A stretch of DNA of 21,023 nt from Bacteroidota bacterium (lineage in GTDB: Bacteria > Bacteroidota > Bacteroidia > Bacteroidales > Bacteroidaceae), in NCBI GenBank assembly GCA_023458215.1, contig JAEXAJ010000153.1, forward strand, positions 1 through 21,023, read 5' to 3'. Under the pieces are notes generated by a model, which searched no databases, was not told the origin of the DNA, and was given only the letters and a program-made list of their open reading frames with translations. Position numbers and translations under genes: made by a program. Below, piece by piece: positions 242 to 19,056 of the stretch; position 1 is the stretch's first letter, and every line of letters begins with the position of its first letter.

Positions 242-310
242 CTAATGTATGAATGGGGAATATAAGTGAGTAGGTGCATCCGGCAAAAAGCCGTAACAGA
301 AAAGGATGTT

Positions 311-359
311 GTTTTAGCATTTTTTTCTGTGGTTGCAAGCTACTCAAATCTTTCCACAT
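311..359 (-). promoter_or_regulatory. SAM-II riboswitch candidate in the metK leader
   Basis: Read on the minus strand, this 49-nt stretch has the order of landmarks I associate with SAM-II aptamers. A 5-bp P1 stem is UGUGG (354-358) with CCACA (328-332). The loop holds GATTTGA (344-350) followed by TTGCAACC (331-338). The 3' tail contains GCTAAAAC (311-318). TAGC in the loop (339-342) is complementary to GCTA in the tail (315-318), compatible with the pseudoknot of this class. It begins about 8 nt after the transcription start predicted from the TATCTTTG box, and the next gene is metK, a natural target of SAM feedback. The call rests on motif recognition and context, not on a covariance-model score. 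Confidence 0.8.
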
Positions 360-373
360 TTCATTTTCGGATG

Positions 374-4904: not shown

Positions 4905-4978
4905 CCCACTCGGTTCCAACGTAGTGGGAACTTATTCCCAAGCTGTTGGGAATTTCTTCCCAGCATGTTGGGAATTTC
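4905..4978. repeat. Tandem palindromes TTCCCA/TGGGAA, 21-22 nt period
   Basis: Three palindromic units follow each other: TTCCAACGTAGTGGGAA (4914-4930), TTCCCAAGCTGTTGGGAA (4935-4952) and TTCCCAGCATGTTGGGAA (4957-4974), separated by 4-nt spacers CTTA and TTTC, with TTTC after the last. Starts are 21 and 22 nt apart. A further CCCACT at 4905-4910 pairs with AGTGGG at 4923-4928. The array occupies the gap between the susD stop and the phosphatase ATG (82-142 nt upstream of the latter). It could be a set of operator sites or, in mRNA, a run of small hairpins that sets relative expression of the two genes. Confidence 0.8.
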
Positions 4979-16904: not shown

Positions 16905-17807
16905 TTATTTCTGTTTCTTCCTGAACACGTAGATCATCGAACTGCTACGCTCTTTCTTTACCAGCGAGCTAAGCCATGCCAATGTTCCGGTAATCATTCC
17001 GCGCAGGAAGGTGCACGAATGCCGCATGTGCTTCTCCGTCAGCATCGACACATAAAATGCGTCGAACGGCATGGGATGACGCTCTGCCATAATAAACCCG
17101 TGTTTGGAACCGAACTGCTGCATAGTGCCCGGAGTGAAGTGCCACAAGTGGCGGGGCACATCGTAGGCAGCCCAGTAAGCGCCGTACTTCTTTGCGTCGA
17201 AAGAAGAACAGTTGGGTACGGCTATTATCAGCACACCTTTATCTGTCAACAAGGAGTTCAAAGTCTGCCACATCTCATTAAGCGGTTCCAGATGTTCCAT
17301 CACATGCCACAGGGTGATCACATCGAAGCTTCCGGGTTCAAAATCTTTTAAAGCCGTATCCGGTTTTACATCCAGGTTGAAATGTTCTTTGGCAAAGGCA
17401 CGTGCTCCGGCATTTTTCTCTACCGCTTCCACTTGCCAGCCACGGCGCTGCATGGTGTCCGCAAAGTATCCGGTACCGGTACCGATGTCCAGCAGGCGGC
17501 CTTCCTTACGGTGTGCTTCGTGCGTCACTAGACGAGCCTTACGCCCCAACATATAGTTGCGCACCCAGTGATAAACGGAGTTCATCGCCCCTTTCTTCGT
17601 ATCGGAATGGGAAATATAATCGGGAGTCTCGTAATAGCGTCCTATCTCCGTTTCCACAGGAAAATCTTGCGTGAAAAGAAATCCGCAATCCTGACAACGG
17701 CACAAGTGGAACATTTCGCCCGAGGCATAATGGTCTACGCAAGTCAGGGCACGCTCTATCTGCGTACCGCCGCATAACGGACAAGCTTTTATAGTGAATT
17801 TATTCAT
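16905..17807 (-). CDS. Class I SAM-dependent methyltransferase with zinc ribbon
   Basis: A 300-residue methyltransferase of unknown substrate. The N-terminus has a four-cysteine zinc-ribbon-like pair, CPLCGG (Cys9, Cys12) and CRCQDCG (Cys38, Cys41). The Rossmann fold follows, with SAM motif I LLDIGTGTG (105-113), an acidic residue after strand 2 (VEAVEKN) and the post-I block FDVITLWHVMEHL. The region PRHLWHFTPGTMQQF is typical of this group, often annotated as methyltransferase type 11/12 acting on small molecules or glycolipids. I start at the ATG at 17807, just before the zinc ribbon; the 16 codons upstream look non-coding. It heads the operon and is followed 62 nt later by ftsX. Confidence 0.88.
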   Translation of the reverse strand: MNKFTIKACPLCGGTQIERALTCVDHYASGEMFHLCRCQDCGFLFTQDFPVETEIGRYYETPDYISHSDTKKGAMNSVYHWVRNYMLGRKARLVTHEAHRKEGRLLDIGTGTGYFADTMQRRGWQVEAVEKNAGARAFAKEHFNLDVKPDTALKDFEPGSFDVITLWHVMEHLEPLNEMWQTLNSLLTDKGVLIIAVPNCSSFDAKKYGAYWAAYDVPRHLWHFTPGTMQQFGSKHGFIMAERHPMPFDAFYVSMLTEKHMRHSCTFLRGMITGTLAWLSSLVKKERSSSMIYVFRKKQK

Positions 17808-17872
17808 CGAACGTTCTGCCAAAAAGGAAATGCAGCCTGAACTGACAGACCACAATACACCTAAATTTGGTG

Positions 17873-18095: not shown

Positions 18096-18197
18096 TCACG
18101 CTATCACGCAACATGCCATACAAAACTAATAATCAAACAATTAAAGCGTGATAGATACGCGTGATAGATAAATATTTTAACAAGTATCTATCACGCT
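18096..18197. repeat. Direct and inverted copies of GCGTGATAGATA
   Basis: GCGTGATAGATA occurs at 18146-18157 and 18159-18170 (13-nt period) and inverted as TATCTATCACGC at 18185-18196. With flanking bases the first copy can pair over 14 bp (18145-18158 with 18184-18197), so two alternative stems compete for one inverted partner. Shorter related copies TCACGC and TATCACGC lie at 18096-18109. No gene covers the region. The preceding 17856-18095 shows only a 12-bp palindrome AAAACTAGTTTT (18079-18090). Confidence 0.8.
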
Positions 18198-18208
18198 CTA
18201 TATGATCA

Positions 18209-18313
18209 GTTTCAATGATGTAAACTCCTGGTTTCAACAGTCTAAACTCCCAGTTTCAACGCATGAAACTGTTGGTTTCAACGTATGAAACTACTGGTTT
18301 CATGTATTGAAAC
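18209..18313. repeat. Five palindromic 17-mers at an exact 22-nt period
   Basis: Units begin at 18209, 18231, 18253, 18275 and 18297, each 17 nt and separated by 5-nt spacers (TCCTG, TCCCA, TGTTG, TACTG). The consensus is GTTTCA-N5-TGAAAC. The last three have perfect 6-bp arms; the first two have GTAAAC or CTAAAC as right arm. Centres differ between units (ATGAT, ACAGT, ACGCA, ACGTA, TGTAT) while the arms are kept, as expected for selection on symmetry. Because AAAC-N5-GTTT is also symmetric across the spacers, the array can pair in two registers. Confidence 0.9.
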
Positions 18314-18334: not shown

Positions 18335-18372
18335 GGACATTGTCCGTTATCAAGCGGACAAGTGTCCGATAA
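18335..18372. repeat. Two GGACA...TGTCC palindromes, 21-nt period
   Basis: GGACATTGTCC (18335-18345) and CGGACAAGTGTCCG (18355-18368) are palindromes whose GGACA cores start 21 nt apart. Each is followed by a related tail (TTATCA and ATAATGA). TTATC before and GATAA after the second palindrome extend its symmetry. The pair directly follows the GTTTCA array and has the same spacing but a different motif. The remaining stretch to 18552 shows only a weak -7-like CATCTTTG (18418-18425). Confidence 0.7.
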
Positions 18373-18552
18373 TGAACAGAGGCAGAAAATACCTTTTTAC
18401 TGAATATCAACAACTTACATCTTTGGCACGCGAATTGACTATTATTAGGCGAAGGCGTTCGAAAAGAAAAAGCAAACCGAAATGCAACTTTTTCAATCGA
18501 AGCGGACGTCTAAAGATAAAACAAGAATAGTAACAATAAAAAAATAAAGATT

Positions 18553-19056
18553 ATGAAAACTACAAGTTTATTCAAAGCAGTCGCATTCGTAGCAATGGTT
18601 ATCGTAAGTGTTATGAATTCAGAAGCAAAGGCACAGGACAGTAACTTCATCACCAATGAAGAAGTAAAAAACGAATTGGTAGTTGCCAAGACTATCTTCA
18701 AGAAAGACGGCGCACAGCTTTACCGCCACATCCGCTACAACTTTACGTACGACGACCAAAATCGTCTGACCGGCAAAGAAGCCTCCAAATGGGACAGTAC
18801 ACGCAACGAATGGACACCTTATTTCAAGATATCCTATCAATATAGCGAAAATGAAATCACCATGCTTTACGGCCGTTGGAACAATTCACACAAAGCATTC
18901 GACTCTGATGTAAAGAAAAGCGTATACGAATTAAATGATGAAAACATCCCGGTAGCCTACAAGTACTTCCAGCAAAACACAGATAAATCCGACTGGACAA
19001 TGGTAAGTTACAACAAGGTAAACTTTACACATAACTTGCTGGCAATGGCAAAATAA
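18553..19056 (+). CDS. Secreted DUF3836 protein
   Basis: A 167-residue exported protein of unknown function. The signal peptide covers about residues 1-28 (hydrophobic AVAFVAMVIVSVM, then SEAKAQ). The mature part has short beta-strand repeats: YNFTYDDQNRLTGKEASKWD, WTPYFKISYQYSENEITMLYGRWN and KKSVYELNDENIPVAYKYF. This tyrosine/aspartate-rich pattern, with a YDDQNR turn resembling YD-type repeats, is what I recognise as the Bacteroides family DUF3836. The ATG at 18553 follows an A-rich leader suited to Bacteroides translation. Upstream are the 22-nt-period arrays; 20 nt downstream begins a terminator-like element. Family call is from memory; nothing indicates a reaction or ligand. Confidence 0.75.
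   Translation: MKTTSLFKAVAFVAMVIVSVMNSEAKAQDSNFITNEEVKNELVVAKTIFKKDGAQLYRHIRYNFTYDDQNRLTGKEASKWDSTRNEWTPYFKISYQYSENEITMLYGRWNNSHKAFDSDVKKSVYELNDENIPVAYKYFQQNTDKSDWTMVSYNKVNFTHNLLAMAK

Follow-up and report, generated by a model that had tools for sequence, protein, structure and literature searches.

Introduction

Why does a row of evenly spaced palindromes lie between two bacterial genes? The window is a 21,023-nt stretch of DNA from a Bacteroidota bacterium (assembly GCA_023458215.1, contig JAEXAJ010000153.1). It carries such a row about 240 nt upstream of a DUF3836 gene, in the divergent gap that separates this gene from a methyltransferase-domain gene. A sequence-only reading described five 17-mers of the form GTTTCA-N5-TGAAAC at 22-nt steps and proposed either sites on one DNA face for a cooperative dimeric regulator or a row of small RNA hairpins. 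The best explanation, tentative and of somewhat less than even confidence, places the array in a dispersed Bacteroides repeat family, as one of its copies. The array would form a strip for a putative sequence-specific DNA-binding protein and not an operator of the neighboring gene.

Arrays of the window

The coordinates and the exact 22-nt step of the five-unit array are as first described (Table 1). The exact form GTTTCA-N5-TGAAAC is present in three of the five units, the last three, while units 1 and 2 end in GTAAAC and CTAAAC. A search with GTTTCANNNNNTGAAAC at no more than 2 mismatches gives 5 matches in the window, one at each unit start and all inside the array; 3 of 100 shuffled controls also reach 5. 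Five 2-mismatch matches alone are not rare, and the rarity lies in the exact units and their exact spacing. Units are separated by 5 nt, the same length as the gap within a unit, so the half-site appears at 11-nt steps in alternation with its reverse complement.

Table 1. Arrays, array units, and neighboring genes in the window
Feature	Positions	Strand	Description
Five-unit array	18209..18313	.	Period 22 nt: 5' arm 6, centre 5, 3' arm 6, spacer 5
Unit 1, GTTTCAATGATGTAAAC	18209..18225	.	Degenerate, pairing over outer 4 bp
Unit 2, GTTTCAACAGTCTAAAC	18231..18247	.	Degenerate, pairing over outer 4 bp
Unit 3, GTTTCAACGCATGAAAC	18253..18269	.	Exact
Unit 4, GTTTCAACGTATGAAAC	18275..18291	.	Exact
Unit 5, GTTTCATGTATTGAAAC	18297..18313	.	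Exact
Second array, three units	4913..4974	.	Same architecture; arms TTCCCA/TGGGAA; first unit GTTCC/GGAAC
Methyltransferase-domain gene	16905..17855	-	Neighbor on the other side of the five-unit array
DUF3836 gene	18553..19056	+	PF12930, E 4.7e-43; neighbor, outside the element

The right arms of the second array are exactly 22 nt apart, and 30 nt separate the end of this array from a SusD stop codon. For both arrays of the window, the dyad score is equaled by 0 of 200 column permutations.

Other repeats and elements are present in the window. Directly upstream of the five-unit array, inverted and direct copies of GCGTGATAGATA (18142-18200) make up a different repeat. An array of period 11/22 at 475-529 (CTCCCTACCTA) is non-palindromic. 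An Rfam covariance-model search of the window gives no match over the five-unit array at gathering scores, and its sole match is a SAM-II riboswitch elsewhere (304-363, minus strand, 66.4 bits).

The 22-nt phase

The phase was examined in a sample composed of the window and 80 loci of relatives (1.46 Mb). Distances between dyad centres peak at 11, 22, 33, 44, and 55 nt. Six chains of at least four dyads have their centres exactly 11.0 nt apart, and the 12 other steps tried (9-15 nt) give no such chain. One Markov-1 simulation yields no chain at any of the 13 steps. Tandem Repeats Finder returns 44 arrays of period 22 and at most 14 of any other period from 16 up. A separate excess of period 7 and period 14 repeats is seen in the intergenic DNA of loci L001-L080.

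Recurrence of such palindromes at 21 to 23 nt in Bacteroidales intergenic DNA was a check named by the sequence-only reading. Among 565 intergenic regions of relatives, 40 match themselves at lag 22, and none of these regions does so after one shuffle (seven lags tried). Lags of 12 to 45 were tried in a 150-kb sample of E. coli, and 0 of its 50 regions self-match. In 180 kb of B. fragilis and P. vulgatus DNA, 1 of 63 regions does so at lag 22. The phase signal is therefore a class feature and is uneven between species. Genome G286 has a lag match in 10 of 87 regions, an overstated rate because its stretches are not random: 4 of 20 were lengthened to include known arrays, and a fifth holds one by position. 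The loci of G010, G236, and G341 were also chosen because they bear arrays.

The period is more common than the symmetry. By column permutation, 24 of 58 arrays of period 21-23 are dyadic at p 0.05 or less, where about 3 are expected; one of the 59 array regions was too short for this test. The remaining 34 share the period and have no significant symmetry. Palindromicity of the consensus unit of tandem repeats proved too insensitive, and column permutation was used instead.

Distribution among Bacteroides genomes

The exact motif of the window is present in the genomes of 10 of 13 relatives. B. timonensis has 34 exact copies, many of them spaced by multiples of 22 nt. The 17-mer of unit 3 also occurs within arrays of B. 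clarus (G002) and B. propionicigenes (G006), and unit words are shared across loci and species in both orientations. B. fragilis and P. vulgatus have one motif copy each, and these copies are intra-ORF, as is one other repeat of B. gallinarum.

A strict two-unit pattern is found in 6 of 201 genomes from the taxonomic family, and its reversed control has 0 matches in all 201. Of 149 genomes of the genus, 57 have the looser pair GTTYC-N7-GRAAC-N5, with as many as 83 matches in a single genome, and the other 92 have none. The reversed control of this pair is nonzero in 5 of the 149, four of which are among the 57. Other species have arrays with other arms and the same period, e.g., the CTATAGAT-type arrays of B. 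rodentium, B. fluxus, and B. cutis. One viral contig carries one pair of units.

An Rfam search near two similar elements (L184 and L196) gives no family at gathering scores. A literature search found no description of the arrays; most subscription journals were outside its scope, and novelty is provisional. The accessible text of a paper on P. gingivalis repeats (PMC5771137) has no match to the arrays.

Evolution in sister species

B. bouchesdurhonensis (G236) and B. faecalis carry arrays at common loci, where long flanking matches are 75-97% identical, mostly 93-96%. Orthologous array pairs number about 15, and 11 of them were aligned. These alignments have internal gaps of 22, 44, and 66 nt, as well as others, e.g., 21 and 24 nt. 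The number and the content of units differ between the two species. Between the two species, arms are identical at 686 of 737 positions (93.1%), centres at 334 of 511 (65.4%), and spacers at 157 of 243 (64.6%). Units were called in one species only, since a pattern required in both would inflate arm identity. The flanks in the same alignments are identical at 2201 of 2644 positions (83.2%), a value lowered by misaligned ends. Relative to the flanking DNA, centres and spacers evolve faster and arms slower. In the sister species, as had been noticed in the window, arms are kept and centres are not. Fast centres and slow arms suggest exchange with other units combined with selection on the half-sites.

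In B. faecalis, the array matches of L205 and L206 are identical and separated by 81 kb, and another pair of identical matches lies on two contigs. These pairs may reflect recent duplication or assembly.

Proposed role of the arrays

The working unit would be GTTYCA, a 6-bp half-site that recurs at 11-bp steps, each time on the opposite strand. With this phase, all half-sites would fall on about one face of negatively supercoiled DNA. We infer that copies of a symmetric DNA-binding protein sit next to one another on the strip, and that the docked protein serves as a structural or architectural mark instead of an operator of the adjoining gene. Arrays would gain, lose, and exchange units while selection preserves the half-sites and their phase. 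The conserved half-sites, variable centres, and exact step fit the original idea of sites on one DNA face for a symmetric protein, and the regulatory part of that idea is not supported (see below).

Several observations count against a docking strip. The excess of the period over the symmetry is unexplained by a plain protein-site model. A mixed-species set of 162 units has 15 compensated arm changes within units versus 6.7 expected, as base pairing would give. The 92 pattern-free genomes and the single lag-22 region of B. fragilis and P. vulgatus also weigh against it.

The arrays are spread over the genomes of common gut bacteria in strict phase, and gene annotation does not show them. An array would be a ready bait for a protein that recognizes it. 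A row of palindromes close to a Bacteroides promoter is not necessarily an operator.

Relation to known repeats

The strongest competing explanation, doubtful on balance, is a selfish or neutral repeat of the REP/BIME kind. A putative enzyme would mobilize the arrays, the arms would be its recognition site, and copies would persist where they do least harm and bring no gain to the host. REP, BIME, and REPIN elements with their RAYT (TnpA_REP) are dispersed, intergenic, palindromic, clustered, and have lineage-specific unit sequences, and the arrays resemble them in all of these features. Like REP/BIME, the arrays are dispersed multi-copy palindromes that are mostly intergenic. Their sporadic presence between species, the unit words common to loci and species in both orientations, and the hypervariable insertion site in the window are all consistent with selfish spread. 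Y1 transposase genes are found in 7 of 15 genomes searched, and all seven have at least one two-unit match.

Other features differ from REP, BIME, and REPIN. The arrays have an exact 22-bp head-to-tail phase, little sign of a pairing constraint in single genomes, and no Y1 linkage. Mediterranea massiliensis (G012) has arrays without a Y1 match, as do three genomes with one pair each (G130, G061, and G104). None of 9 Y1 matches has a GTTYC-N7-GRAAC unit within 1.5 kb, and by eye the Y1 flanks bear other palindromes. Many arrays also hold their position in sister species. As described in the accessible part of PMC3733652, one end of a REP palindrome carries a tetranucleotide, GTAG or CGTC according to class. 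No fixed tetranucleotide is present in unit columns 7-11 or 18-22 (162 units). The GTAG class has its RAYT gene flanked by the same repeats and the CGTC repeats do not, according to the available sections of PMC3733652 and PMC6006769. A match to a known repeat family had been named as a result that would explain the spacing and symmetry away; the arrays have neither the REP/BIME tags nor the RAYT linkage. Membership in the RAYT/REP system was rejected on the distribution of Y1_Tnp and on its flanks.

REP-like palindromes (GCCCTGAAAGGGC and others) lie beside Bacteroides Y1 transposases at three of the Y1-match flanks (L137, L139, and L141). They are perhaps the atypical subclass 2.6 elements found in the accessible text of PMC6006769.

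Two further systems share parts of the architecture. CRISPR arrays have regular short repeats with variable segments between them and GTTTC...GAAAC ends, as the arrays do. The variable segments here, however, are only 5-7 nt, words recur between arrays, and unique spacers of guide length are absent (spacer 5 nt). Plasmid iterons and parC-type centromere arrays are short sites phased at about 11 or 22 bp that are bound by proteins side by side. Unlike these, the Bacteroides arrays are chromosomal, occupy many dispersed loci, and alternate in half-site orientation.

Similarity to parS

A special case of the docking strip is that the arrays weakly bind the chromosomal ParB, or a relative, and aid chromosome organization or segregation. 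This is improbable. The parS-like 14-mer GTTYCACGTGRAAC is found exactly once in each of 17 genomes tried (17/17), in a conserved context. Its reversed control has one match in 1 of 10 genomes. The array half-site GTTYCA is identical to half of the host's parS-like site and has the same Y/R freedom at the fourth base. Position 6 of the half-site is A in 68-91%, position 7 is G in 4% or less, and position 8 is G in 35-59%, in line with the CACG of parS. The arms of the second array in the window, TTCCCA/TGGGAA, presumably resemble a Noc binding site.

The two kinds of site differ in architecture. The full parS dyad is TGTTTCACGTGAAACA or a close variant in the accessible text of PMC10197239. 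It is absent from the array units, which have N7 between GTTYC and GRAAC; the 14-bp parS-like sites are elsewhere, one per genome. Array half-sites are thus N7 and not N4 apart, are phased, and number tens per array-rich genome versus one parS-like site. With a 7-nt instead of a 4-nt centre, a ParB dimer could therefore not sit on both halves as it does on parS. A longer parS 16-mer (TGTTYCACGTGRAACA) has no match in 7 genomes, and the 14-mer was then used. Other array families also have unrelated arms.

The position of arrays on the chromosome gives a partial signal. Four genomes, each with one large contig, have 40 array clusters at a mean normalized distance of 0.41 from the parS-like site (two chromosome lengths are rounded). 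Clusters within 0.2 of the site, the nearest fifth, number 15 of 40 (binomial p 0.008, threshold chosen post hoc). A KS test for origin bias gives p 0.079, and genome G247 has no bias. Among the matches listed for G286, 20 of 27 clusters are in a 1.8-Mb stretch on one side of the parS-like site. The GC skew of G286 changes sign, negative to positive, in the interval 1.12-1.46 Mb; the parS-like site of this genome is close by, at 1.57 Mb.

A dedicated ParB or Noc paralogue was considered and rejected. Twelve array-rich genomes and 12 with no or almost no arrays were searched with HTH_ParB, and each of the 24 has one strong match (E below 2e-36). The remaining matches, with E of 6e-12 or weaker, fall in both groups and do not mark the array-rich genomes.

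Identity of the half-site with half of the host's parS makes a link to chromosome organization a lead, as yet unproven. In its boldest form, tens of phased parS-half strips would recruit ParB or a related protein at places away from parS and make up a distributed chromosome-organizing or nucleoid-occlusion system, with lineage-specific sequences and a constant 22-bp phase. This extension is a long shot. As context and not as evidence, the available part of PMC10197239 describes aligned chromosome arms in B. caecimuris and no condensin homologue in two Bacteroidetes genomes examined. The array is a candidate mark for the open question of how Bacteroides arms align without known condensins (PMC10197239, same part).

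RNA hairpins and position between genes

The proposal of a row of RNA hairpins, acting in transcripts as an mRNA stabilizer, terminator, or protein sponge, is very unlikely. The units are palindromic, and the compensated changes within units of the mixed set (see above) are what pairing would give; between units, 3 are observed versus 5.2 expected. Sets from single genomes are different. At arm position 4/14, the most variable one, two sister genomes have 7 double changes versus 13.4 expected (some units are counted twice, and L208, where the script calls no array, is excluded). Among 181 exact units from four genomes, the Y/R position 4/14 is changed on one side in 30 units and on both sides in 1, versus 1.4 expected if independent, a comparison of little power. 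Position 6/12 is paired in 130 exact units versus 122.6 expected (z 2.2), a weak covariation in favor of pairing. Positions 7/11 and 8/10 are as expected, as are the spacer ends (z 0.5). On the sense strand, G.U is not in excess over C.A (16 versus 28, convergent contexts left out). With weak arm covariation at most and no G.U bias, RNA hairpins are therefore disfavored. The half-sites are read as largely independent and probably recognized in DNA, on a test of low power in which position 6/12 leans the other way.

Array position relative to genes rests on crude ORF calls. Loci selected by the motif contain 11 arrays in tandem contexts, of which 10 lie closer to the upstream gene, at its 3' end, and the eleventh is flush with both genes; this count omits a single intra-ORF site (L120). 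B. bouchesdurhonensis tandem arrays are nearer the 3' end in 8/9, 10/13, and 9/14 cases at ORF minima of 60, 100, and 150 aa. This lean would suit an element of the transcript. Loci not selected for period-22 arrays have 27 such arrays in tandem contexts, of which 16 lie closer to the 3' end. By eye, three arrays (L092, L097, and L103) come after a terminator-like hairpin, which argues against a hairpin role of their own.

Convergent gaps appear at first to be preferred. With ORFs of at least 60 aa, the 18 array loci of B. bouchesdurhonensis are 8 convergent, 9 tandem, and 1 divergent (convergent p 0.007). With at least 100 aa, they are 4 convergent (p 0.19), 13 tandem, and 1 divergent (p 0.14). 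The preference is lost at the 100-aa minimum and is therefore not robust, and position gives little support. Period-22 arrays in loci not selected for them occur at 0.67 per kb of convergent gaps, 0.35 of tandem gaps, and 0.32 of divergent gaps.

The locus between the methyltransferase and DUF3836 genes

The distance between the conserved promoter flanks of the two genes ranges from 43 nt to 7 kb across species. It is about 410 nt in the window (414 when aligned to B. rodentium), 43 nt in B. rodentium, 297 nt in B. clarus, 247 nt in B. gallinarum, 579 nt in Mediterranea massiliensis, and 3 to 7 kb in five others. B. rodentium keeps both promoter flanks and has no array between them; an array-free orthologous locus was one part of the refuting result named by the sequence-only reading, which coupled it with unchanged flanking expression. 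B. clarus and B. gallinarum have 22-nt arrays of different sequence here. From these comparisons, the place between the two flanks is taken as a probable insertion hot spot, and the flanks appear to be conserved without need of the array.

The least probable explanation is that a cooperative dimeric regulator binds the array as an operator of the methyltransferase or DUF3836 gene: the upstream position in a divergent gap and the helical phasing would suit it, but neighbors elsewhere are unrelated and the B. rodentium locus is array-free, and a DUF3836 operator is therefore disfavored. The arrays of other sequence in B. clarus and B. gallinarum, and the divergent setting of only 1 of 18 B. bouchesdurhonensis array loci, also speak against it. 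Of 36 proteins that neighbor arrays in B. bouchesdurhonensis, 10 were scanned; nine belong to different Pfam families, and one has no match.

The DUF3836 promoter itself has two elements, at 18355-18368 and 18424-18438. They are an upstream dyad, CGGACA-AG-TGTCCG, and a sigma54-like sequence, TGGCAC...TTGA, which we take to resemble the sigma54 consensus. By eye, a similar promoter sequence is present upstream of eight DUF3836 orthologues.
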